Below, one piece after another: positions 19,803 to 54,500 of a stretch of 64,000 nt of DNA (position 1 is its first letter; every line of letters begins with the position of its first letter). This stretch comes from Paralichthys olivaceus (Eukaryota; Chordata; Actinopteri; Pleuronectiformes; Paralichthyidae). Location of the stretch: NCBI RefSeq assembly GCF_024713975.1, contig NC_091096.1, positions 18,946,458 through 19,010,457 on the forward strand, written 5' to 3'. Below the pieces are notes generated by a model. That model worked only from the letters and a program-made list of their open reading frames with translations, made no database searches and was not told the DNA's origin. Position numbers and translations under genes: made by a program.

Positions 19803-23432
<3,630 letters not shown>

Positions 23433-23549
23433 CAGAGGGAGGGAACCAAACATACTGTACATGTCTGGAATGTAGATGATGCTCCGGTGCTCAGTCAAAT
23501 GGAGAAGAGTCAAAATACACAACCGTCTCCAAATGTATTGTATTTGTTA

Positions 23550-23555
23550 AATAAA
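23550..23555 (+). other. ccdc157: CCDC157 polyadenylation signal
   Basis: AATAAA lies 118 bp after the CCDC157 stop codon, followed by more A-rich sequence. It fits a short 3' UTR. Confidence 0.65.
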
Positions 23556-24134
23556 AATAAAAATACCTGCGGATAAACTCAAGTCTTGCTACAAAAACAA
23601 TAATTGAAACAAATGTTTCGAAACGATTTTTGAACAGTTTTTGTTTGCTTCCCAAAAGTCATAAAAGTGAAGAAAGACACAGATTGAAGTTTTTATGTGT
23701 TTTATACGTGATGCAGCAGCTGTGCTTCAGCCAACACAAAATGTTCCCATCATCATTTGTTTGGGTTGATAATCTCTCCAACAAAGAGGGTGTCTATGTG
23801 CTACCTGTGGTCAGGTGATTGCAGTTATTGCAATTAGCCTCTATAATAAAACAATATGGATAAAATAACAAAACAATTATCCAGCCAAACTCTGTGCAGA
23901 TTATAAAAGTTATCTGGAGCAATCCAACATTTACACTGTAATAATATATAATAAGTAGTATTTAAAACTATCTTAAAGGACTTAACCAGAAAAAAAACAA
24001 ATATTAGATTTTAGAGTCTCCTGAAGTCAAATTCAAAGCTTAGAGAGAGGATTTAAAGGAGAATATGTTTAATATATTGAATGCTGCAAGAAAGCTTAAA
24101 CATGAACAGTAAATACTGTTGTTTATGTTCAACA

Positions 24135-24733
24135 TAATTCTCCTTTGTTGTAATGACAACAAAAAATGATTAAAGGAGTTTTAAACTTTTTAATCAGAGC
24201 AATTTGTGACTCTGACCATTTCACTAGTGGACCGCAGAGAGAGACGCCTGGAGAGAAAATCTACATTTTCAGTCTAAAATACTGACTTTCTTTAACGTCA
24301 ATTATTGATATTATTAGTCATCAGCCAACTGATTCACCAGTGAACCTAACAGGTAATACTCACATTGACATTTTTTGATGCAGTTATCTGTAAACACACG
24401 CTTCTGTGGACTGATTGTTAATAAAACAAAATAAATATTATGTATATTATACTATGATATGTGTATATGATGTACATATATATCAATAAATGATAATATT
24501 TGATCAATAATATGCATCTATCAGCATGTTATATGTATTTATCAGAATGTAAGCTAGTTGCATGCTGAGGTAAAAATAGTTATTATCATTTATCTTGTCA
24601 TGTAAATGAAGATCATTGAAATGTAGAGGATTTCCTTCTGGATTGTAGTGAAGTAGTAGATATAGTTTACACTTGGTGTTTTTATCTCTGATGCTTTACA
24701 CTTTAAAAGTGTCTCAAACCCAGTTTCTCATCA
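24135..24733 (+). other. spacer and possible 5' non-coding exon of locus X
   Basis: No coding frame. A possible non-coding first exon ends at 24352, where aacctaacag/gtaatactc makes a good donor. The rest is AT-rich. The part from about 24480 matches the spacer before the later copies of the locus X first exon. Confidence 0.35.
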
Positions 24734-27700
24734 ATGTCACAGAGCAAAACAGAGCAAATGGACGGCTACACACCTAAGAATATTATGGAGATGGAGATGG
24801 ACGACAAGGAGTTGTTGGACAGGATCTGGGCAGTGGTCCACAAAGTGTCAGAGGACACAAATACCCGTCCACTTCCTCAAGATGTCCCTGCTCAGGAATG
24901 GCATTACTTGTTTAGCTGGATTGGTTCTGATGAGGGCACCCCCCCTATAGCATCACATCTCAGCTTGGAGCAGCATCCTACTGAACCCCATGCTGAACTG
25001 AACGACCAGCAGCAAAGTGTCCTGCAGTCAGGCCCACAGTTCAGCCACGCAGGGCCTCACAACCAGACACAGGTAAGGTACTAACTACAGGTTAGAGAGA
25101 GATTCAGAGGAACTTTATCAATACCTGTATCAAGAAAGATACTTATTAATGGAGGAGGGGGTAATTCATGAGTACTCAGAGTAGTGAACCTGACTGAGTA
25201 TAGAGACTTATTATAATGGCCCAGTAAAGTATATGAGTTGCTTATGGACGAGGCAGTGATATGATCCTGTCAAAAAACTATAGAATAGATTTTTCTATTT
25301 GTAATTGAAAGAACATAGTTACAAAGAAATCTGTGTAATGTTGACAGTGGATGTATAGTATATAGTATATGGAAGCATATTTAGTGTCCATATCTCCATT
25401 TATCTCACTGGCTGATGGTTAATACAGAAGCAAAATCACAGTGAAAAAGTATCACAACCAAATAGCTTCTAATTAAAAGTATTAGATTCTTGTATAGTTT
25501 TATTTCATAATACATGATAATATTGGATCGTTCATTTGTATTTATCAGCATGTAAGCTTGTTGCAGTGTCTCAAACCCAGTTTCTCATCAATGTCACAGA
25601 GCAACACTGAATTGGACGGCTAAACACCTGAGAATATTATGGACCTGAGGGCAGAATTTGACCCTACTTTGGAGGAGATGGACGACAAGGAGTTGTTGGA
25701 CAGGATCTGGGCAGCGGTCCACAAACTGTCAGAGGACACAAATAACCGTCCACTTCCTCAGGAATGGCATGACTTGTTTAGCTGGATTGGTTCTGATGAG
25801 GGCACCCCCCCCCTATAGCATCACATCTCAGCTTGGAGCAGCGTCCTCCTGAACCCCATGCTGAACTGAACGACCAGCAGCAAAGTGTCCTGCAGTCAGG
25901 CCCAGAGTTCAGCCAGGCAGGGCCTCACAACCAGACACAGGTAAGGTACTAACTATAGGTTAGAGAGACATTCAGAGGAGCTTTATCAATACCTGTATCA
26001 AGAAAGATACTTATTAATGGAGGAGGGGGTAATTCATGAGTACTCAGAGTAGTGAACCTGACTGAGTATAGAGACTTATTATAATGGCCCAGTAAAGTAT
26101 ATGAGTTGCTTATGGACGAGGCAGTGATATGATCCTGTAAGAAAACTATAGAAGAGATTTTTTTATTTGTATTTGAAAGAACATAGTTACAAAGAAATCA
26201 TGTTGACAGGGGATGTAAATCATAGTAAGAGTCCATATCTCCATTTAGCTCATTGGCTGATGGTTAATACAGAAGCAAAACCACAGTGAAAAAGTATCAC
26301 AACAAAACAGCTTCTACTTAAATGTATTAGATTCTTGTATAGTTTTATTTCATAATACATGATAATATTGGATCATTGATTTGTATTTATCAGCATGTAA
26401 GCTTGTTGCAGTGTCTCAAACCCAGTTTCTCATCAATGTCACAGAGCAACACAGAGCAAATGGACAGCTACACACCTGAGAATATTATGGACCTGAGAGC
26501 AGAATTTGACTCTACTTTGGAGGAGATGGACAACAAGGAGTTGTTGGACAGGATCTGGGCAGCGGTCCACAAAGTGTCAGAGGACACAAATAATCGTCCA
26601 CTTCCTCAAGATGTCCCTGCTCAGGAATGGCATGACTTGTTTAGCTGGAGTGGTTCTGATGAGGGCACCCCCCCTATAGCATCACATCTCAGTTTGGAGC
26701 AGCATCCTACTGAACCCCATGGTGAACTGGCTGCTGCCATTAACCACCAGCAGCAAAGTGTCCTGCAGTCAGGCCCAGAGTTCAGCCACGCAGGGCCTCA
26801 CAACCAGACACAGAGGAACTTTATCAATACCTGTATCAAGAAAGATACTTATTAATGGAGGAGGGGGTAATTCATGAGTACTCAGAGTAGTGAACCTGAC
26901 TGAGTATAGAGACGTTTACTTTGGTAGAAACCTCCTGTTTGGCACGAAGAAATTCTTCATTCATTAAATTGTAAAAACTGTGCATGATTGATTTCTTCTG
27001 TGGTTGATTAAAGAATCAGTGGTGTCAGTGATAGTGCTGTGCTTTAGTCTTAGAGGGCAGGAGTTCTGGGAAACACCACAGAGCAACTACAGGTTACAGA
27101 TATTATTCATCTTTGGTTCATCATGTTCAGGAGGTCAATATTAAGATCAGGACAGAGATTACACAAGGCTGGGTTAGGTATAAATATGTGTGGTGGTGGT
27201 TCTAACTCTCTGACACCAAGGGGACAGATGACACAGAGGATGCAGGTTGTCTTATCTCTAATTTTGTGTCTGTTCTTGTCTCCAGTTCAACAATGTGCCA
27301 GCAGTGAAGCTGACGAAACACCTGGAGGTGAGGCTGGCTCCTATTGGATTATTGTAAGTATCACACACATTAATGCAAACACACCTCTGAGCTACTGTTT
27401 GTATCTGTCTTCTAATGTGTATGATTGTGTTTATGTAGCCATGGAAAGGTGATTTACGGGGCTCCAGGAGACAGAGTTCCTTCTCCTATGAACCACCGCC
27501 ACTCACAGTAAGTCTGTCTGACTAGTTCACAGTCACTTGTCTGTCATGAATTTATATTTATTTGAATGAGATGCTTTCATGTTCTTTTCTTTCCTCACAG
27601 TTTTACACATTGGTAATTCATGCTTTCTGTGTCTTTCATGTTTTTCCACAGAAAGAGAAAACGTGAGAGCCAGCAGGAGGATGAGATGCCTTATTCCAAG

Positions 27701-28346
27701 CTCTCAAAGACAGAACAGACACTAAGCGCTGTTGCTGAGCCAGAAACTCCTGACTGTGGAGCCCTTCACCCCAAATTTGAAAAGAAGGTATGTGTCTTTG
27801 CTCTGTAGGTTTGAGACTCTCAGTGTCACACAAACCTCATCCAGCTGTGTCTATGACCACACTTCTAAAACCTTTCTCTAACTATAATTCTTGACATCAT
27901 GACACATCTATATATCCAGATTTAACTTGTGTTCAACAATGTGCCAACAGTGAAGCTGACGAAACACCTGGAGGTGAGGCTGGCTCCTGTTGGATTATTG
28001 TAAGTATCACACACATTAATGCAAACAAACCTCTGATCCTGTGTTTGTATCTGTCTTCTAATATGTCTGATTGTGTTTATGTAGCCAAGGAAAGGTGATT
28101 TACGGGGCTCCAGGAGACAGAGTTCCTTCTCCCTGTCCAGACACAGGAGGCTCTGGAAAAGATTGCAGCTGACACTGTCGCTGCAGTCGAGACACAGGGG
28201 GCTCAGGAGAAGATGGCAATGGAATTGAATGCTCCAAGAAACAGCTCTCTGTCAGCTCTCCTGCTTTCTTCTACGGATTATCCAATGCATCTAGTTGAGG
28301 ACAATTTTCTTCTCCAAAATTCAGTTAAAATAAAAAATTATATATA
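24734..28346 (+). CDS. Locus X: unrecognised multi-exon gene candidate
   Basis: I do not recognise this protein. A consistent model runs: first coding exon 24734-25072 (113 codons, phase 0, donor cag/gtaagg), exon A 27286-27353, exon B 27439-27507 and exon C 27652-27787. All have GT-AG borders and phases that join without a stop. The first exon is acidic with Gln/His/Pro-rich parts (DKELLDRIW, VPAQEW). A and B give LTKHLEVRLAPIGLL and HGKVIYGAPGDRVPSP. C is basic then acidic (KRKRESQQEDEMPYSKLSK), suggesting a nuclear signal. After C, a diverged A'-B' block (27932-28346) ends with AATAAA at 28329-28334 and may be the last exon, but its A' acceptor looks destroyed. Copy 3 (26436) could replace exon 1 if it had a donor. 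The gene could be a young lineage-specific gene or a decaying duplicate. Exon borders are seen; transcription is inferred. Confidence 0.45.
25591..25940 (+). pseudogene. Locus X first exon, copy 2 (disabled)
   Basis: It is homologous to the first exon at 24734-25072 and keeps the cag/gtaagg donor. It carries a premature TAA 11 codons in (where the other copies have TAC), a 15 bp in-frame loss around the VPAQ segment, and a C-run of nine bases instead of seven that shifts the frame before the ASHLSLEQ part. It cannot encode the full block. Confidence 0.8.
26436..26855 (+). CDS. Locus X first exon, copy 3 (open but without donor)
   Basis: This copy is fully open and the longest of the three. 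It keeps the DLRAEFDSTLEEMD segment missing from copy 1 and an extra AAI near the end. The splice donor and about 33 bp that follow it in copies 1 and 2 are deleted, so the frame reads on through former intron sequence for 14 residues (RNFINTCIKKDTY at the end) to a stop. It could be a single-exon form of about 139 aa from the internal ATG, or a non-functional copy. Confidence 0.4.
   Translation: MSQSNTEQMDSYTPENIMDLRAEFDSTLEEMDNKELLDRIWAAVHKVSEDTNNRPLPQDVPAQEWHDLFSWSGSDEGTPPIASHLSLEQHPTEPHGELAAAINHQQQSVLQSGPEFSHAGPHNQTQRNFINTCIKKDTY
27932..28346 (+). repeat. Partial repeat of locus X exons A and B with a distinct tail
   Basis: 27932-27999 repeats exon A with a few changes and keeps the donor attgtaagt, but the tccag acceptor is moved upstream by an insertion. 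28085 onward repeats exon B up to 'gttccttctcc', then changes to new sequence. In the exon B frame the tail reads DTGGSGKDCS and stops. In another frame it is open for about 70 codons (TQEALEKIAADTVAAVETQG) to a stop at about 28346, next to AATAAA. Confidence 0.6.
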
Positions 28347-28504
28347 AAAATGGTAATTCAAGCTCCTAAAGTTTGTTACATTCTCCTATTTGTTTTAACC
28401 ATAATTTGATTCCATCTCCATCTGATCAGGCCGGAAGGACTATTTACTGGAAGGACAGGGGACTGTCTACTATTGCAGACTCATTTTGCATCCTATATAG
28501 AGCT

Positions 28505-28830
28505 AAAAGACACCTTCTCCCTACTTCATGCTCACTTTTTCCGTTACTTCGTTCTAAGTAAGACATTCTGTTATTAATAACATATATAATATATGGTCTG
28601 GCTATGTCAGACCATAGCCCAATTCCCCTGTCTCTAACTCTGGAAATGAAAGTAAGGAAAAGGCTATGGAAATTAAATTCAAACATACCTAATGACCCTA
28701 AAATAAGTGAGACACTGAATGGGGACATCAACAATTATCTAGTCTTAAATGATACAGGGGTCTTGCTGGTCATTCTTTGGGACACATTGAAAGCAGTAAT
28801 GAGAGGGAAATTATGGCCCTGACAGAGGTA
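28505..28830 (+). mobile_element. LINE-1-clade ORF2 fragment (endonuclease end to linker)
   Basis: The plus-strand frame with SDHSPIPLSLTLEMK, then RLWKLNSN and VILWDTLKAVMRGK, matches the region after the AP endonuclease domain in L1 ORF2: the SDH catalytic motif and the LWDT.KA..RG linker. An upstream piece in another frame fits the preceding endonuclease segment. The fragment is short and frameshifted, so it is a dead relic. Confidence 0.7.
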
Positions 28831-28856
28831 TGTGCTTTACTGAGGTTAGTATTTTA
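28805..28856 (+). repeat. end fragment of a dispersed fish repeat
   Basis: The string 'ggccctgacagaggtatgtg ctttactgag' matches, as I remember it, the terminal part of a dispersed teleost repeat. The internal part of the same family appears at 63225-63500 and, inverted, at 36190-36245. The family name was not assigned. Confidence 0.4.
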
Positions 28857-29287: not shown

Positions 29288-29808
29288 TTAGTCGCATCCA
29301 TTTTTTTCGCCTAAATATGGATTTATCCTCCTCAGATGTTCGCTGAATGAGCGGCTGTAGATGAGGACATCTTCCAAATACACTAGGCAGGTTTTCCATG
29401 GGAGGCCACGAAGTACCATTTCCATCAAGCGTTGGCTTGTGGCTGGAGCGTTGGTAAGACCCATTGGCATAACATTGAAGTGATAAAGTCCACTGCCTGT
29501 TGTGAATGCTGTTTTTTCACGATCTTTCTCATCCAGCTCAACTTGCCAATAACCATGTTGCAGGTCCATTGTGGAGAACCAGGCAGAGCCTGACAAAGCA
29601 TCCAGTGCGTCGTCGACTCTTGGAAGAGGGTGGAAATCTTTGTCACCACATTGAGTTTTCTGTAGTCCAGACAGAAACGCCATATGCCATTTTTCTTGCG
29701 CACCAAAACAACTGGTGCAGCCCAGGGACTATAGCTTTCTTCAATGACATCTGCCTTTAACAGTTTTTCAACTTCAGTCTGTATTTCAGCTCTCTGTTCT
29801 GGTGTCAC
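29288..29808 (-). pseudogene. Reverse transcriptase relic of the Ty3/gypsy element
   Basis: Two overlapping frames carry the fingers/palm motifs: [37 protein letters not shown], then [13 protein letters not shown] and VYLEDVLIYS. The catalytic YxDD box appears as YLED, so a key residue is changed. The frame shifts between FCLDYRKLN and the next block, and the palm is cut off shortly after the YLED box at about 29330. Confidence 0.85.
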
Positions 29809-33142: not shown

Positions 33143-33715
33143 TTCAACAATGTGCCAGCAGTGACGAAACACCTGGAGGTGAGGCTGGCTCCTATTGGAT
33201 TATTGTAAGTATCACACACATTAATGTAAACACACACAAACACACCTCTGAGCCTCTGTTTGCATCTGTCTTCTAATGTGTCTGATTGTGTTTATGTAGC
33301 CATGGAAAGGTGATTTACGGCGCTCCAGGAGACAGAGTTCCTTCTCCTATGAACCATTGCCACTCACAGTAAGTCTGTCTGACTAGTTCACAGTCACCTT
33401 GTCTGTCATGAATTTATATTTATTTGATTGAGATGCTTTCATGTTCTTTTCTTTCCTCACAGTTTTACACATTGGTAATTCATGCTTTCTGTGTCTTTCA
33501 TGTTTTTCCACAGAAAGAGAAAACGTGAGAGCCAGCAGGAGGATGAGATGCCTTATTCCAAGCTCTCAAAGAAGGAACAGGCACTCAACGCTGTTTCTGA
33601 GCTTGAAACTCCTGACTGTGGAGGGGCATTTTTTGGGCCTAAATATGGATTTATCCTCACCCAAAAGGCAGAGCATATTCTCCAGTCCCTGCAAAGGCTT
33701 TGTTTTCACACGTGA
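33143..33715 (+). pseudogene. Locus X second copy: exons A, B and C without a first exon
   Basis: Exons A (33143-33204), B (33300-33368) and C (33514-33715) keep all splice sites and phases of the first copy. Exon A has a 6 bp in-frame deletion (KL lost from VKLT). Exon C differs by several substitutions and has a different tail: after PETPDCG-like sequence it reads GGAFFGPKYGFILTQK and stops after 66 codons. No first exon precedes it in the window, so it is either a 5'-truncated pseudogene or uses an unseen start. The open frame and in-frame deletion leave open that it once coded. Confidence 0.6.
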
Positions 33716-33965
33716 ACCGGTCCATGCACCCCTCCCGCCAGCCACGTCAGATGAAGATTCAGAGAGACTGCATGGAGAGGACACTGTAATGGGGCTGGGG
33801 CTGTGACGTGGCCACCATTTGTGTTTTCCTCCTGTGGACGACTGCTATTCATGGTAGGACAGTGTCTCTTCCTGGAGTCTTTGGAGCTTTTATATATTGA
33901 TTGTTGGACAGAGCTGGAATTAGTGAGACTGTGGCTTAATTGTTAATTCCTTCTTTGTTCCACAG

Positions 33966-34002
33966 GTACAGCAGCAGTGCAGCATGGCTGATCTCCAATT
34001 GG
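33966..34002 (+). pseudogene. Copy of the last CCDC157 coding exon
   Basis: The 37 bp match the final CCDC157 exon with substitutions; the sequence diverges just where the parent has its stop. It lies 10.5 kb from the gene behind a broken locus X copy and no other CCDC157 exon is nearby, so it is a stranded fragment. Confidence 0.75.
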
Positions 34003-34317
34003 GACATAATGTTGCAACCTTACTCATACTATTTCCAATAATGTGACGGACCATCCAGAGATGAATAAGCAGTTGGTCACACATAGCACATTATATTTTA
34101 ATTTTGGCTGATGTGTTACTTTTTTAATCCATTTAAAACAACCTGTTTATAACCAATTTTCATTGTCAATGTTCAAATGCTAACCTTATGAGTGAATAAC
34201 CAACGTGGACAACTCATGATGCCAGATACTACAGAGAAAGCCTCACTTATATGATACATCAGAAAAAGAGGTTTAGAATGGTTGGTTTATTTCTCCATCC
34301 AATATCTATATTGCTAA

Positions 34318-34550
34318 TCCTTGAGGGTTGCCATTCCCAGTTGACATTAGAGGCAGGGTACATCTTGAACAGTTTGCCAGCAGGGTAACAAACAATAAGT
34401 GTCTCCAATTAACCTCTACTCTCCATGTCTCCCACACAGACATCAGGAGGACATGTTGCCTCCACACAGAATGGCCAAGGCCAAACTGGGATTAGAACTA
34501 GGAACATTTCTGCTGTCACAGTGCTAACCGCTGCTTGACCGTGCTGCCCG
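34318..34550 (-). mobile_element. tRNA-headed dispersed repeat inserted in the duplication
   Basis: On the minus strand it opens with cgggcagcacggtcaagcag, 'cggttagcactgtgacagca' and a box B-like 'gttctaatcccag'. It then has the body 'ctgtgtggaggcaacatgtc' and ends with 'taccctgcctctaatgtcaa'. This is the widespread vertebrate 'GGCACGGTGG' type repeat. It is absent from the parent copy at 23.4 kb, so it inserted after the duplication or was lost there. Confidence 0.6.
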
Positions 34551-35254
34551 CTGAGTTACATATGTAAAGACAAATATATTGCTGTTCTACTGAATGTGAT
34601 AAGGGATTGTAAAAATGCTCTGGTGCTCAGTCAAATGGAGAAGAGTCAAAATACACAACCGTCTCCAAATGTATTGTATTTGTTAAATAAAAAATAAAAA
34701 TAACTGTGGATAAACTCATGTCCTGGTATTGTCTTGCTTCAAAAACAATTATTGAAAAAAACAGTTTTTGTTTGCTTTCCAAAAGTCATAAAAGTGAAGA
34801 AAGACACAGATTGAAGTTTTTATGTGTTTTATACGTGATGCAGCAGCTGTGCTTGAGCGACACAAAATGTTCCCATCATCATTTGTTTGGGTTGATAATC
34901 TCTCCAACAAAGAGGGTGTCTATGTGCTACCTGTGGTCAGGTGATTGCAGTTATTACAATTAGCCTCTATAATAAAACCATATGGATAAAATAACAATTA
35001 TCCAACCAAACTCTGTGCAGTTTATAAAAGTTATCTGGAGCAATCCAACATTTACACTGTAATAATATATAATAAGTAGTATTTAAAACTATCTTAAAGG
35101 ACTTAACCAGAAAAAAACAAATATTAGATTTTCGAGTCTCCTGAAGTCAAATTCAAAGCTTAGAGAGAGGATGTAAAGGAGAATATATTTAATATATTGA
35201 ATGCGGCAAGAAAGCTTAAACATGAACAGTAAATACTGTTGTTTATGTTCAACA

Positions 35255-36535
35255 AGTTTAATTGCAGAATATTACTAATATTATATCTAATAATATTACT
35301 CCATATTATATCATAATTCATAGATGTAGATGAGAAAAATGTTATGCCAAAACATATTTACTATTCATATTTATATTTATATCAAAGTCCAAGGCTTTTT
35401 TTGTAATTCTTTCAATAAAGTTGCTGTATGTTTGCATTTTCTCAGTAGATTTTGTGCAGTGTTTTTTTCCCAGTAAAATGAACAAAATGAGTAGGAGCAG
35501 AGAGCAGAATTCACTACGCCTAATTATTGCAACTAAACATAGGTTTACTTTGTAGTTTAGAGGATAGGTTGGTTTGTGTTTGAGAACAATCTTTTTCAAT
35601 TTTGTGTTAAGATTATTGTTGCTTTTGAAGTTTTATTTATTATAATACCAACACAATAATTCACAGGATTATTGTCATGTGCAAAAATCATAGACACATT
35701 ATTAGCAGTTTTGAAAGTTTTTACTTCCTGTGTGTGAGGGAATACATAAATTGATACATACGTAAGTCAGAGATGTGCTACTATATTTACTTATTTGTTT
35801 AAAAGTGTTTTGTAAATAAATAATTATAATAAGTGCCCTTTTGCTCACTTGAGTCCCTTCCTCCCAAAATGTCTGCGCACGTCCCTGCTCTCCATCCAAA
35901 CAAGCAGTCTTGTGTCCTGCCTCTCACCTTTCACAAGAATGAGCTGTGAGTGAACTGTAAACTCCACCAGAGAGCGCTGTTGTGACCAGGAATTTATGAC
36001 TCGAAACCTTGCCTTGTATTTTTTCAAATGGTTTGAACAAAGATATAAAACCACATTTAAACTAACTAGATCAGTTTTTTTTATCGTGCACCAAATTCCA
36101 CACACTCATAAATATTGGTCTTAATATGTCGGGTTTTTCTCATGTACATCTATGTATTATTCTCTGAGGAATCAACGAAGCTCACAATGTTGAAGAAAAA
36201 AAACTCTGGATATGCCCCCTGATCTGCACCAAAATTCAGGTTCTTTTCTTGGTAATATGTTTTTGCTTACAAACAAACAAACCAACCAATAAACATACAT
36301 ATGTGAAATATTCAATATTTTTCATTTTTAGTTTTAGCTTTCCTTTCCTTCTTTTTGGGAATTGTATGTTACACCACCTCAAGACTAATGTGATTATGAT
36401 ATTCTCTGATGCTATTTAGAAATAATGTTTATAATAATAGGGATACTTTTTAAAACTTGAGATGCGATTCTTTGAAAAGACACGCCAAACAGATATCTCC
36501 ACAATTCAGATTTTTGTAAATGCTGCTTCAAAACA
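35255..36535. other. AT-rich intergenic DNA
   Basis: No coding exon is recognised. Around 36190-36245 lies a minus-strand fragment (ggatatgccccctgatctgc accaaaatt) of the dispersed repeat seen at 63225-63500. Confidence 0.5.
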
Positions 36536-38444
36536 TTTATTTTTAATTGATGACACGGTCGTTGCATTTTATACCGACGTACACAATAACAGAAAAAGAT
36601 CTGAGACCTCAATGTGCAAGTACAGAATACAATACTATTCCGAATAAGAAAAGAACTGGATTATTTGTAATTGTGCTACCTGGCACAAAAAAAGACAAAA
36701 GAAAGAGGTGAGAGAACGTTCAGCTAAAAAAAGCACCACAGTATTCATGTTTTCCACCAGCTCCAACATCAAAAGCATAACTGTGACACAAATTTACCAG
36801 GAAATGGTGTGCAAAATTTTACAAAATTCCTTTTGTAACTATGCCAAAATGTCTCCTACTGTACATCTGTGTCCATGTTTGTGTTTTGTTTTAATAATTA
36901 GAAAGTGTGAAGTCCTGTATAAGAGTTTGTATGCAACAGACAAATAAATATCACAGACTACTTTAGCTTTGGAAGCCTTTCTGCATTGATTACAACATGT
37001 TTAAGGCCATTGGTTTCTTATGTAACACATGCAAATACAAACTGAAATGAAAACAAAACAGGAGAAACAGAAAAAAGATTCATGATTTTGATTTAAAAAA
37101 TAATGCCCTGTGTTCATTTATTGACAGTGTGTAGGCTGTGGGAATGTTATTGGTGTAAAATGAAAGTGTTCTCACATGTGTGTCTTTCTCTGATCTGGGT
37201 CAAGTTGCAGACTGGCGACAGGGACTGCTGCAAATCTGCTGGGATTACAGGGGCCCATCTCAGATCTAATATAACCAGTGTCTGCCAATAATTGTACCCT
37301 GTGTGTGTGAAGAGTCCCAATCAGTAGGCATGTGCTTGACTCACATATCCAATAATCTAACTATCTCAGGAAATCAATCACATAGCATATAATAAAATAT
37401 AACACTATAATAAACTCTGTAATCGATGTGCTTTGATATATCATAATCTCATGCCAACAGGGAGAGAGGGAGAAGGATTGCTGTCTAAAGGTGTGTGAGA
37501 AAAACCTTCACAAAATCAGTGACACAAGAAGGAACAGGGTCATGGGATGAGATTTAGATTAAGTGAAGCACTAAAATGTTGCTCAGCCAATTAAAGGGTG
37601 AACACATTACTTATAGAGACTAAACATGGTATGCAAAAAATATGTAGGGCTTATCCATGTAGCACAGACACAAAACTAATGAGATCTGTATGAGAGCAAA
37701 ACAACTGATAGTAATTATAGAAAAGTAAAAACGTAGAATATATTCAGATATTGGATTAAATAATATGTCAGAAACCACTAAAGGTAGGGCAGTCGATAAA
37801 CAGAGCCTCAAGTTTCTCTTGGGGCTTCGAGGAGAAGTAAGAGTTTGAGAAAAAGGCATAAATCCACAAAAGTCTGCATTCCTCTGCTTGACTTAAAAAA
37901 ACATGCAACAAATGGATCCTTAGGATACTCGAGAGGGTTTCCTCAAAACTGCAAAGGTGTGTCTTCTTAACGAGTTATATTTTGAGCGAATGTTGATTTT
38001 CCAGCTCCAGATTCATTTTAGAATAAAAAAATATTCACTGGGTACCTAAAAGAACAGTTTGTCACAAGGAAAGCTTAATATATAACCTGGAGCAAGCACA
38101 TGGAGGCCGACAAACTGGCAAAGTTGAGAGTAAAGAGCTGGACTAAGAGGACGTAACATAAATTTGATGCAAGAAGTTCACGGGACCGTAATAAAGCTCT
38201 CTACTGTACATTCAAATGTTACAAGGTATATAAATTACGCTTAGCAACCAGAACCAGACAGAGAACGTGCGTCCTATCCCGTGGTGTGCTTACATTTGCA
38301 GAGCAACGGGTACAGACTGTGGCGGGCCAGTCATAGACTAAAGGAAATGAGATACAGAAATTACACTAGTAATAGTACAGCGTTTGAGTGGGAGACATCA
38401 TATAATACCAGGCAGTTGTCACGACGACTATATTTGGTCACACA
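36536..38444 (-). other. slc7a4: probable 3' UTR of SLC7A4
   Basis: It follows the SLC7A4 stop codon on the minus strand, is AT-rich and lacks coding patterns. A minus-strand AATAAA (TTTATT at 36536-36541) would end a 3' UTR of about 1.9 kb. The true end was not proven. Confidence 0.4.
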
Positions 38445-48596: not shown

Positions 48597-51500
48597 ATGG
48601 CCCAAAACACATCTCTTTATTTCCGTATTGTCGAGGGCAGGAACCTCCCCGCCAAAGACGTGTAAGTATTACTCTGAGAGGCATGTGGCTCTGTGCTCAA
48701 GTCTCAACTCGCAGGATGGAGACTACACAGCCACAACATTGTTCAGAAGCTTCTTGTCAGATTACATGGGGGAAAAAAGTCCTATTTACATCTAAAAGGT
48801 TTTTTCCTGCTGTGCTACCCTGTCTCGTGTAATTATCTTGAAGAAATGTGATAGTCAAGTGTTTAAATTTAAGAGGAGGTTCATTTTACCATCAGACAAA
48901 CTGCTTATTATGGTATGTCTCATGATGTCCCTTGTTTTTCCTGTCATCTTCAGCTCTGGAACCAGTGATCCATACTGTATTGTAAAAGTTGACAATGAAG
49001 TAGTAGCCAGGTGAGTCCTGTTGTGTTCTAAATGAAGATCTGCACATATTTGTTCATGAAAGTATATTGTTTTATGTGGAGCTGCATCTGCAGGGTCTAA
49101 TCTAAACACTCAGAACTGAATATTCATCATCACAGTTTATATTTGCATTAGCTCAGTTTTTCTGGCTGTGCTTGCGCTATACTCTGTAATCCAGGGTGGA
49201 GGGTATGTGACCATGTTGGTGGTGCCCACAGCGTGGCCTCTCCAATGCAGAGAACCTGATACTGGTCTGGCCTTTAAAACTCCCTCAGGTAACCATGGAG
49301 AGGGTGCATCTATTATTGCAGGGTGCTCCCTGTGTATAGGCAAAGAGAATGCTGCAGAATACACCAGTTCAGATGAGTTCTCCATATGAGAGCAAAAGTT
49401 CAGATGATGTCATTCTCCTCCTCTCCATTCACTCTCCAAATAACACATATTTTCAGGGGCATCACAGCATTCCAGATTTAACTATGGAGGAAATGTGTAG
49501 TTGTTTTTAACACAAACAGAGAAAACTCAGTGGCAATTGTTCCATCTACGCTGAGGGAAAACCACACAATGATTTACCACAGAGAGTCACACTATTATCT
49601 TGTACTTGTGGTGTCACTGGACATCTGACTCTTCGAGTGTGATGTTCACGGATGATGTGGCTGATTGTGGAGGGAGATAACGGACACAATCATAGGGCTC
49701 TACAGTGCTGCAGTGTCCTTGGACATTACAATACATGAGTGCTATTAATAAGCAACTAAAACATAACTGTAGCAATGCCTTAAAGGAAAAACATACTTGT
49801 TCCTGTATATAATGCGTAGATGTTTTCTTTTAGCCACAAAACTAGTAAGAGTTAAATCCGGAACTAATGAATAAGTACCTTTTTTAATATTTGTTACAAT
49901 TAAAAAGGTATCGAGGTTCAACACTGTCTTCATATAATTCTTCCTGGCTTTAACAGAACCTTTAAGAATTTGTATAAACTGAAAAATGTAGGAAATTTAC
50001 CATTACCTCATATCGTGAAGGAATAATAATTCTAAAAAGACACTAAATCAACATTGTTCATTAAAAAGTCTGACTGCTTCAGGTACAAAAGATGCTCTGA
50101 ACTTCTCAGTGGAACATGTTAGTAACATGTTGTCATGCTTGATTATTCATTATATCATTGTGTACAGCAGTATGTCACTATGATGTGAGCTGATCCATAC
50201 ATGAGGAATTGTTCAATTTTAAAAGAGCTTAGAGAAAAGTTTTTATAAAAAATAGTATTATCATATGTAGCAGATCTATGTTTTCTCCTTCTTTTCTATT
50301 CCATCAAACATCTTATGATGCCTTGGAGGGACCCTGGATCCTAGTTGTTTTAAAAGCATGTGATCTGTCCACCCTCGGGTATGTGAGCTTGTACCGCTGC
50401 CACTTTTACAGTGACTCCTGCCTGTTCTGGTTTCTGTGGGTGCATACATTCATGTAATGTCTTCCGGTATAAGGTCTGTTAAGCACGTATAACCCCCCCC
50501 CCCTCTTTCAGGACGGCCACAGTGTGGAAGAACCTTAATCCTTTCTGGGGTGAAGAGTATACACTGCACCTCCCGATGGGTTTCCATTCACTTTCCTTCC
50601 ATGTCATGGATGAGGACACCATTGGGTAACTGTCATTTAAAGCTATTCCATATTCAGCCTCTTTACTGACGGAGCCTCTCAGTGGATTTATAGTCCTCTA
50701 AACCACTGTTTTCTTAACTCGCCCCAGGAACTAATATGACCTCACAAACAGTTTAAATGTTCTGAGAACGTAACTGCAAACTTTGAATAAACAAACATCA
50801 TCAGACAGATGGTCGCCTCCATTGAGTGATTAAAGGTTCTTTTTTTTTCTCGTGTTGTCTGGTGACCACCGGTTCTCTAATCAGTCCGTCCTCAAATTCA
50901 CCTCATTTAAGTGTTGCAGCAACTGCAGCATCAATAGCTCCTCTCTGATAATCTCCTCTTTTATCTCTCTCTACAGGCACGATGATGTTATTGGAAAGAT
51001 TACACTGAATAAAGACGCCATCAGGTCTCAAGCTAAAGGTATAACTAAACAAATCTGGGTGCACGACCGCAGCTCAGAGGTTAAACTCACATGGATTTCC
51101 ACGCCTGAGTCATAGTTCCAAGTGATTGAGGAGACATGCCCTCTTGTTTTTAGATGGGGACTCTGGGAATGTCCCCTGATGTAGTCTCACACATTTAATT
51201 TGATTAGCGCACATTTATCAGGCACTTAAGAGTTTGTTTCGGTCGTGCAGACTCTAACTTGGAGGCGGTGAAGTCAGCGTTCCCACTGATACGTTTGTTA
51301 TTAGAATGGCTCTCCTGGTACTCGTCTGTATAGACGCTGGTATTTTTCATTGCGCATCATAAACCATTTGTTTGTGTGGAACATCACTGTGCTGTAAAAT
51401 GATTATAACAACCAAATCATTTTAAATGACCTGGAGCCTTTTTAATCTTTTACAGGACCTTTCACATTTTAGAAACTCAGTGTTCATGTCAGCACGATCT

Positions 51501-54500
51501 CCAGCCCTTCCTGCATTGTCTCGCTTAGACAGAACATTTAAAATATGGTGTGGTCTAATGCTGTTGTGTAGTTTTATTAAATTGCTCAATGTGTTCATCA
51601 GGGTGTGTTTGCTGCATACTGATGCCTCTGTAGAAAGCCACCTGGCATGGCCTCGTGTGATTAATGGCCACAGGGTGGAACTGAGTCAGTTACTCCCTCG
51701 CACCAATCTTCTCGCAGTCTGGCCTTGATGTACCCTTGCACAGAGCGCAACAGAGAATGTGGATGTGACATGACTGAAATATAAACATTATCAGATGGGG
51801 ACTGAGCATGTTTCATCTTGTCTTGTACTTTATAGATTTTAAAGCATTTTATACCTTTATGCACAAAATTTGCCATTTAGAAAATGTTTACTGATTGATT
51901 TTGACCATAACAAGTTAGAAAGCAGCTTTTCTAGTCTCGATGACCACTCAAAGTACTTTACAGTGCCTTTCAGCCATTCACACACACATTCGTACAGTGC
52001 ATCTATGTGCAACTCTTCCTCTATCACACATCACTCACTCACTGCCCACGCAGCCGTCAGGGGTTCAGTATCTTGCCCAAGGATCGGTCCACCGACCTTC
52101 TTGTTAGAGGACAACTCGCTCTACTCCCTAGCCACCCAATAGTAAAAAAAAAGCATTTACCTTTTATCAGCACAAATCCTAAAAATGTTAAGTTTAATAT
52201 TGAATAAAACAAAGGCATGCAAATCCTCACAACTGAGAAGATGGGACTAGGGAGTTTTTAATTTAATATAAAACAATGAATCTGAATGGATGCAGATTAT
52301 TCTTAATTTACCAGGAGATTAACTAAATACTTTGACATTATTAATGAGAAGGTCAATTCATCAGTTTCTCTATTGACTCAAAACATCTGCTTTTAGTATT
52401 TATTGAGCATTGCTGTTTAAACGACTGGTATCTTTCCGTGTGGTCTGGTCAGGGCTGGATAACTGGCTGAACCTGACGAGGGTCGACCCTGATGAAGAAG
52501 TCCAGGGAGAGATCCATCTGAGTGTGGAGCTGCTGAAAGATACAGAGAAGATCAGCCTGCGGTGTCAAATCATTGAAGCCAGGTAAAATAACTGTTTCAA
52601 ATCCTGACAGCTGAGAAAATGAGAGCACAGTGAGCAGCCAGCATGTGACCATCTTATTATCATGATCTTATTATCCTCTTTATATGTAGATTGAATATGA
52701 TGAAAGCCGACATAAGTTAAGTTTCTGTAGCTTAGTCCTTCCTGGGCTGTCACTATTTCTGAGCTGAAATCTTTACACCATCACCCTGCAGGCCTCCACA
52801 CTCTGCCCCTGAGTCACGTCGCCATATCACACCACTCACTGTCCCATCTGTGCGTCCCAGGCTACAATCTCTCGCTCCCAGGCAGGGCACTAATGAGCAT
52901 GTCACTCAGAACTTGACACTGAGTTATTCAAACATGACCTGACAAATGTGGATTGAGTTTGAAAGAATAAGGTTGAGTTTGTCCTCGCTGACAGTTTGAA
53001 GAGTTTGTTGAGTGTTTTCAGTGAGTAGATCGGTTCTGTTTTCATTCTGTGTCGTGATAACCATAGAGACTTGGCTCCAAGAGACATCACCGGGACCTCT
53101 GATCCATTCGCAAGAGTTATTTTCAACAACCACAGCGCAGAGACCTCGGTGAGCACCATGTTATCATATTGCCATATGCATAAGTGAGCTGAGCTCAATT
53201 GGTAATCAATCAAATTGAATTTCTATGGCCCATATGCACAATTAACAATAACACTTAACAAGGTGCAACATCTTCTATGGTGCCTTTAACCTTGGACAAT
53301 AGTGGGGTGACAAAGGTTTGTTTTTTAGATTATCAAGAAAACTCGTTTCCCTCACTGGGGAGAGACACTGGAGCTGCAGGTGGATCCCGAGGAGCTGAGT
53401 GTGGAAGGAAACGTCACTGTGGAGGTCTGGGACTGGGACATGGTGGGCAAGAATGACTTTCTTGGAAAGGTGAGGATGCTGTAGTTAAAATAATAATGCT
53501 GTTTTTCTATTGATTTAAATACATGGTTGGTTAAAAATGTTTTGTCTATGTGTAGAGAATTTTTCAACACTAAATTCCTTAATAAGTGATTGTTCCTGCC
53601 TGATATCATATCCTTGTTTGCTCTTTGTGTCCGCAGGTGGAAATTCCTTTTCCTTGTTTGCACAAGGCACCTCTGTTAGATGGCTGGTTCCGTTTACTAC
53701 CCTTGGGAAACAATGAGGTTGATGCAGGGTGAGGATTATGGGTGTGTCTATTTGGATAATGTAGTGAGTAGTAGTTTGTATGCTTGTATGTTATAACTGA
53801 GGAAGGCATTTTGCTGTTGGAAACCTCTCAAGACTCAAAGTGAGCAGCAATTACTGGGTCTTTTTAAATGCAGCCAAGGAAACTATTGTTCCCCCTGCAT
53901 GCGTTTGCAGGTGCATAGCCAGGTCTCTGACAGCGTCTGTTCCTTGAGATAATTTTAGACCAAACAAAGCTGAGTGAACTGCGAAACGGATGACATAAAA
54001 GTAAAGTGAATCTCGGAGACTCACAGTTAAAGGGGTTGCACACCGCTGAGTAGAAATTGGTAACTACCCAAGTAATTACAAAACCTATTTGCTCTGGAAC
54101 TATATGTTACAACTCATTGGTTTGGGGAAGCAGTGTGAACGTTTGATGCACCATAAGGAGACACTATCACTGTGTTTAGAGATGTTAGAAAAAGGCTTTT
54201 AAATGTATCATATCAGCACCTTGCTTTTTTATTTACAGATTTCCGCAAATAACTAATTTTGCACAAAACCATGTACGACAAAGCCAGTAGCTTGTGTTTT
54301 TTCAAAAAGTCCCTAAAGCTTTTCACATCGTTCCCAGGATTCCTTTAATGGAGGTTCATCATGATCATGTCTCCCTCTGTTCTCTCTGAGATTCTTTTTC
54401 CTTTTCTTTTCCTTTGTCACAGTGGTAAGCTGGGAGCACTGCGTCTGAAGGTGCGTCTGGTGGAGGATCGGATTCTGCCATCTGTGTACTACCAGCCTCT

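Follow-up and report, generated by a model that had tools for sequence, protein, structure and literature searches.

A modular multi-exon locus of Paralichthys olivaceus that looks like one of few open copies in a mostly dead family

Is a multi-exon frame that resembles no known protein family a lone new gene? We asked this of a locus at 24734-28347 in a stretch of 64,000 nucleotides (nt) of Paralichthys olivaceus NC_091096.1 (the window, to which all locus coordinates refer), where the original prediction had placed an undescribed gene. Our answer, to which we give a probability of about 0.68, is that the locus probably belongs, as one of the interior members, to a family of modular protein-coding genes, each consisting of a first exon (E1), at least one module of three exons (A-B-C) and a terminal exon (D). 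It looks like one of few open copies in a mostly dead family, not a lone new gene. The idea of an undescribed gene thus stands as regards a coding ancestor, which is likely, and the lack of a Pfam, NCBIfam or Rfam match, but not as regards a solitary locus: the family has more than 120 copies, and its amplified form is dead.

Exon structure and predicted product

The four exons proposed, all on the plus strand, were verified. E1 (24734..25072; 339 nt, 113 codons, phase 0), also called E1a, is acidic and open and ends in the donor CAG/GTAAGG. It is followed by A (27286..27353, 68 nt), B (27439..27507, 69 nt) and C (27652..27787, 136 nt), the last of which encodes a KRKRE stretch. All four have GT-AG at their borders, and their 612 nt join into one stop-free frame. 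A, B and C together form a 273-nt module of 91 residues with phase 0 at both ends. Beyond the original prediction, we found a terminal exon D (28141..28347, plus strand) of 68 codons plus a TAA stop at 28345-28347, with an AATAAA at 28329; its acceptor phase agrees with C, and the full model E1+A+B+C+D has 272 codons. A triplication of E1, a third A/B copy at 27932-28132 and a genome-wide repetition of the locus, described below, likewise go beyond what had been predicted. Upstream, a putative 5' non-coding exon with promoter flank lies at 24195..24353 (plus strand); its donor-like CAG/GTAATA was read from the sequence, and its limits are inferred.

D opens with a 51-nt unit that occurs as tandem repeats in some other copies, 2.8 to 3.7 times in L010, L032 and L036 according to the repeat-finder listing. 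Each 51-bp unit in these three loci ends, by eye, in CAG. If these CAGs served as acceptors, splicing could change the product's length by 17 residues.

We scored the locus with a simple dynamic-programming gene finder, which combined splice weights with codon weights taken from neighbouring genes, against a null of 300 simulated sequences. The locus reached 35.1, compared with a null maximum of 13.3, which places this multi-exon open frame with GT-AG borders beyond chance. As controls, the neighbouring gene that we take to be CCDC157 scored 30.8, the minus strand of the locus 0.0 and the interval 34000-38400 0.3, while 48600-54000 gave 14.1 on the plus strand (just above the simulated maximum) and 9.0 on the minus strand. 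The plus strand of this last interval holds a chain of candidate exons, which may be real exons. The gene finder itself picked E1, the acceptor of A and D; it ended A early, at a donor after 27327, and passed over B and C. The open run of E1 is unremarkable on its own, as 1.8 runs of at least 125 codons are expected per 64 kb. Of six exon indels, five are multiples of three in length, whereas only two of the 10 indels in non-coding DNA are (one-sided p=0.024).

We searched for known relatives of the product. The full model matched no Pfam family at E<=10, with filters that drop most weak matches; NCBIfam gave nothing above its cut-off and a single match at E=0.11; and no Rfam family reached its gathering score, all of which is in keeping with a lineage-specific family. 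For the A-D part, Pfam returned sub-threshold resemblances to MAJIN (PF15077, E=0.1) and latexin (E=0.097). We rejected an identity with MAJIN, as its 13 bits fall short of the gathering cut-off of 27 and latexin is equally weak, so that both lie at chance level. Among viral contigs, none of eight pattern matches was confirmed as a relative, and a literature search by titles and the starts of abstracts returned nothing on this locus.

Translation of the frame would give a small protein, largely disordered and presumably nuclear, whose N-terminal part is acidic and has two short helices, whose modules each carry a basic KRKR stretch and whose C terminus has 17-residue repeats. E1 carries a net charge of -12, and the maximum hydropathy over 19 residues is 0.84, that is, the product has no strongly hydrophobic stretch. 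The structural model predicted for E1 places helices at residues 24-41, 53-62 and 72-75 with low confidence (predicted local distance difference test score, pLDDT, of 50). A role as a chromatin- or transcription-associated adaptor would be a guess from this composition, and a rather unlikely one.

Open relatives and dead copies in one genome

Copies were sought in the locus's own genome (588 Mb, 25 contigs). Exon C as query gave 134 candidates; every one was scored, which left 131 matches, on 15 contigs. A stop interrupts 123 of the matches (a single TAG in 121), and eight are open: two in the window, three at L009, and one each at C24:3346845, C12:1681140 and C24:3109006. For the E1 DNA query, 40 of 279 candidates were scored, giving 73 rows, and for A-C DNA 40 of 292, giving 41 rows. 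With the protein of E1c, an E1 copy in the window, 150 of 380 candidates were scored, all of them matches with E<=3e-10; six of these 150 are stop-free over residues 1-126 (one of them over 1-121), namely E1a, E1c, L009, C24:3370546, C12:1642152 and C24:3054992. Other E1 copies in the clusters are stop-free over part of their length only, at most residues 11-95 among the scored matches, and the full E1 frame is kept in none of the nine cluster copies L010-L018.

We also assembled 31 A-B-C triplets, a number in which some places count twice, as L019-L022 and L036 coincide in part with the window or with one another or further loci. Twelve are open, 17 carry the TAG, and two represent a shortened module (module 4 of L009, below) read too far. 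In all 17 TAG-bearing triplets the stop, once translated, falls at the identical site in exon C. Many copies thus have one disabling change in common, as in an amplified family of pseudogenes.

The matches occupy one place or cluster per contig, besides interior places on C4, the dead ones in one cluster per contig, and copies are often spaced 30-50 kb apart. C21 is an exception with a single copy and C2 has only a few, so "cluster" is a loose term there. Most clusters are near a contig end, but on C5 and C17 they are found several Mb away from it. The cluster copies L010-L018 have long stretches in common at about 92-99% identity, and the tandem-repeat listing of 11 loci held no obvious satellite. 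Frames for the endonuclease and reverse transcriptase of a long interspersed nuclear element (LINE) lie inside the cluster unit. So does a frame that, judged by eye, we presume to be ZBED-like and in which Pfam finds nothing. An open frame in the cluster unit on C10 (L033, 8858-9898) reads as a coiled coil and contains 4.8 copies of a 126-bp repeat that match at 96%; its only resemblance is a weak, sub-threshold one to Sec20.

The closest relative, L009, lies 234 kb from the window and has an open E1 followed by four A-B-C modules. Modules 1 to 3 (273, 273 and 267 nt) are open with phase 0 at both ends; module 4 lacks 60 nt of C and, at 207 nt, stays open to a donor of its own, its end having been read by eye. 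One open module is kept at L023 (C24:3346845). The C24 and C12 loci L040-L042 contain E1, a piece of B, and D, and A and C were not found there within the stretch examined; in these loci E1 would splice to D. We compared the 5' flank of the window locus (24134-24733) with 13 loci by BLAST. L009, L040 and L042 have it, L023 has it split in two, and L041 has 24560-24733 only, whereas the checked cluster loci (L005, L006, L010, L011, L013, L016 and L018, five distinct copies) retain only bits of 26-45 bp.

Divergence, selection and competing readings

Between lineages, exons diverge more than introns. The window and L010 differ at 73 of 648 exon positions and at 34 of 918 in introns and flanks (p=1e-8), and the window and the open C24 module of L023 at 27 of 273 and 21 of 459 (p=0.008). 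Overall the exon difference is 10-16% and that of introns 2-5%, so exons are about three times higher. Pooled synonymous sites (about 16/136) also diverge more than introns (p=2.5e-4). Likewise, E1c set against intron 1 shows the excess for L010, L013 and L015, and four interior E1 copies have means of 5.6% in exons and 1.7% in a 118-bp intron, an intron too short for a conflict between trees to show. Window E1a and L009 lack the contrast (exon 16/339, intron 16/462, p=0.37), as do cluster copies among themselves. We rejected CpG decay as the source of the exon divergence, as the roughly threefold excess of the window-L010 exons appears at G/C and A/T sites alike; positive selection as the sole cause is disfavoured, since the excess extends to synonymous sites. 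Given that the 5' flank differs at 94 of 510 positions between the window and L009, the exons may reflect how old the copies really are, with the introns having been homogenised.

That the family had a multi-exon coding ancestor is likely because exon phases, splice sites, the L009 modules, in-frame indels and the open C24 and C12 frames all agree with it. Both the indels and the lack of stops suggest that constraint acted in the past. Replacement (pN) and silent (pS) differences were computed as simple proportions on unedited MAFFT alignments. For A-C of the window against L009 module 1, pN/pS is 0.14 (limits 0.00-0.73; 2/212 versus 4/61), the sole value significantly below 1; modules 1 and 2 of L009 give 0.40 (0.14-1.10). 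Replacement changes outnumber silent ones by 13:2, 13:2 and 11:5 in the pairs of E1 copies in the window, and parsimony by hand yields about 19:5, a neutral share. The dead branch has 8 replacement and 1 silent change, and the interior branch 19 and 7. The original prediction had taken neutral dN/dS and broken frames as signs against a gene; among paralogues, neutral-like pN/pS and frame breaks do occur, with the window and L009 module 1 departing from them towards constraint. Codon log-odds in the stated frame are 0.139 for E1 and 0.134 for A+B+C, compared with a background mean of -0.236 and a 95% point of 0.012, a background that, like that of the gene finder, may include some real exons.

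Several observations weigh against a family member kept by selection. The codon background includes the locus itself, the log-odds of known control genes spread widely (0.02 to 0.24 per codon), and those of exon D are slightly negative, meaning no codon bias for its stated frame. By hand count, the branch to E1a, in part common with L009, carries 8 replacement and 0 silent changes. pN/pS for E1 is 0.72 (0.27-2.46) between the window and L009 and 1.1 to 1.8 against the C24 and C12 copies, with limits that span 1, and the window and the open C24 module give 0.84 (0.34-2.17), not significantly below 1. Without constraint, the observed differences from the open C24 lineage would leave the frame free of stops with a probability of 0.02-0.03, a figure weakened by the choice of C24 and C12 partners for being open. 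In addition, the E1 donor is seemingly lost in L042, low intron divergence could have another cause, and the nuclear role is read from composition only. For a present function of the window copy, we put the odds at even.

An alternative, that the whole window locus is a relic and that all copies, the open ones included, are non-functional with frames that are open merely because they are young, has in our view an appreciable chance, though one short of even. It would account for the neutral-like pN/pS between lineages, for the stop in 123 of 131 exon-C copies, for a window array with a frameshift, lost donors and a fusion of B3 to D, and for L040-L042, where A and C escaped detection. The low pN/pS between the window and L009 module 1 speaks against it, as do the bias towards in-frame indels, the consecutive open modules in L009 and frames that are still open at 10-16% exon divergence.

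The opposite alternative, a fast-evolving functional gene whose exons selection keeps different while gene conversion homogenises its introns, as is reported for primate L/M opsin genes, is unlikely. The excess of exon and synonymous divergence over that of introns fits it and resembles the gibbon opsins, for which PMC3213168 describes exon divergence above that of introns, synonymous sites included, and puts it down to gene conversion of introns; the opsins are known functional genes under purifying selection, whereas the function of the window family is putative. The short introns, the flank difference that would make the exon value a matter of age, the mostly dead copies, and the absence of the contrast between E1a and L009 or among cluster copies all speak against it. 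More improbable still is an extension in which a fish-specific nuclear repeat protein multiplied its three-exon module, its exons pressed to differ and its introns homogenised across chromosomes, with a dead derivative in one heterochromatin-like cluster per chromosome; such a gene would be in conflict with, or domesticated from, the DNA of those clusters. A non-coding or transposon-derived repeat with exons that arose by coincidence is, in our view, a very improbable reading of the locus and one already disfavoured. The high copy number on 15 contigs and the LINE frames in the cluster unit, with the presumed ZBED-like frame, suit such a repeat; the gene-finder score, the lack of a Pfam match to the full model and the long segments shared by cluster copies do not. 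Terminal inverted repeats of a DNA transposon were sought and rejected, the region having short pairs of 13-27 nt only. Finally, E1 residues 51-74 match USP11 in phmmer (E=0.016), a 24-residue likeness to its DUSP domain (structure 4mel). A diverged USP-type DUSP domain in E1 is nonetheless hardly credible: the match weakens to E=0.18 in the sister exon E1c, the matching Tyr occurs only in E1a among the three window copies, Pfam, with filters that drop most weak matches, lists no DUSP profile for the full model at E<=10, and the low-confidence model has short helices only.

Returning to the modular family with few open members, its history probably ran as follows. Local tandem duplication would have shuffled the window locus, and a form with the TAG already in exon C would have reached all 15 contigs, settling in a single place or cluster on each, apparently as a passenger of large segmental duplications, to judge from the near-identity of long stretches and their spacing. 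A few open copies persist, in the window and L009 and separately on C24 and C12, with introns presumably homogenised by gene conversion and exons staying distinct.

The surrounding window and what the family means

The window contains one full and two partial modules, three copies of E1, serpin fragments and a broken retroelement. E1a is the first of three tandem E1 copies with a period of about 860 bp, all on the plus strand. E1b (25591..25940) is dead: a TAA interrupts its frame, and a frameshift of 2 nt breaks it as well. E1c (26436..26813) is open over 126 codons and has lost its donor through a 35-nt deletion. The missing 35 nt (after 26813; compare 25073-25107) start with GT, end with AG and contain TACTAAC. 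A microhomology deletion is likelier than splicing as the cause of the loss, because CAG repeats flank them.

A partial third module, A3-B3 (27932..28132, plus strand), has an A3 without an AG acceptor and a shortened B3 fused to the D acceptor. At 33 kb, where a recurrence of exons A to C had been predicted, we found A2 (33143-33204, with the predicted 6-bp in-frame deletion), B2 (33300-33368) and C2 (from 33514) on the plus strand; only part of C recurs, as the sequence departs from it at about 33624 and the donor is lost. This truncated module (33143..33623) has neither E1 nor D. The changes are not mostly silent or conservative, as had been claimed: eight codons differ in the compared part of A-C, of which three are silent, and a P-to-L change lies just beyond. 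Nine differences between C and C2 fall within about 31 bp (27711-27742 versus 33573-33604), beside long identical stretches, a clustering that points to conversion with some other copy. The retroelement junction at 29299-29330 and the divergence point of C2 at 33627-33658 have a 32-bp stretch (94%) in common, perhaps templated filler DNA.

On the minus strand, a flank block at 23479..24134 contains a fragment of a serpin 3' end (DTLFVGEIINPN, 12 residues, E=0.013) and is duplicated at 34615..35254. This block has a DNA match to L009, and its serpin label comes from larger minus-strand gene pieces in L009 (9068-9565) and L039 (267-911). A 68-bp copy (88%) of the last-exon junction of CCDC157 (23355-23422) lies at 33924..33991 on the plus strand. 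The broken retroelement, on the minus strand at 29.3-31.4 kb, has Pfam matches to reverse transcriptase and aspartic protease, and a fragment judged by eye to be LINE-like (SDHSPIPLSL...) lies at 28450-28840, shortly 3' of D. The locus sits downstream of CCDC157 (plus strand) and ahead of an amino-acid permease and DGCR6; Pfam matches in the window include a PRP21-like (SF3A1-type) piece, the permease and DGCR6. The neighbour names CCDC157, SF3A1, SLC7A4 and TBC1D10A are those that we presume.

Lineage-specific genes that vary in copy number are a known kind. In stickleback, PMC4256280 describes young genes of this sort, likewise recently duplicated and fast-evolving in a teleost. The amplification of dead copies seen here is unusual: the P. 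olivaceus copies, known from one genome, mostly carry a stop and lie in one cluster per contig. What appeared to be an orphan gene becomes a traceable case, in which open, decaying and mass-amplified dead forms of a modular gene stand side by side in one genome. For annotation it is a warning, as gene prediction at such copies could give spurious orphan genes. The family also opens the way to tests of how a dead gene reaches one cluster per chromosome and of whether selection keeps the open copies.

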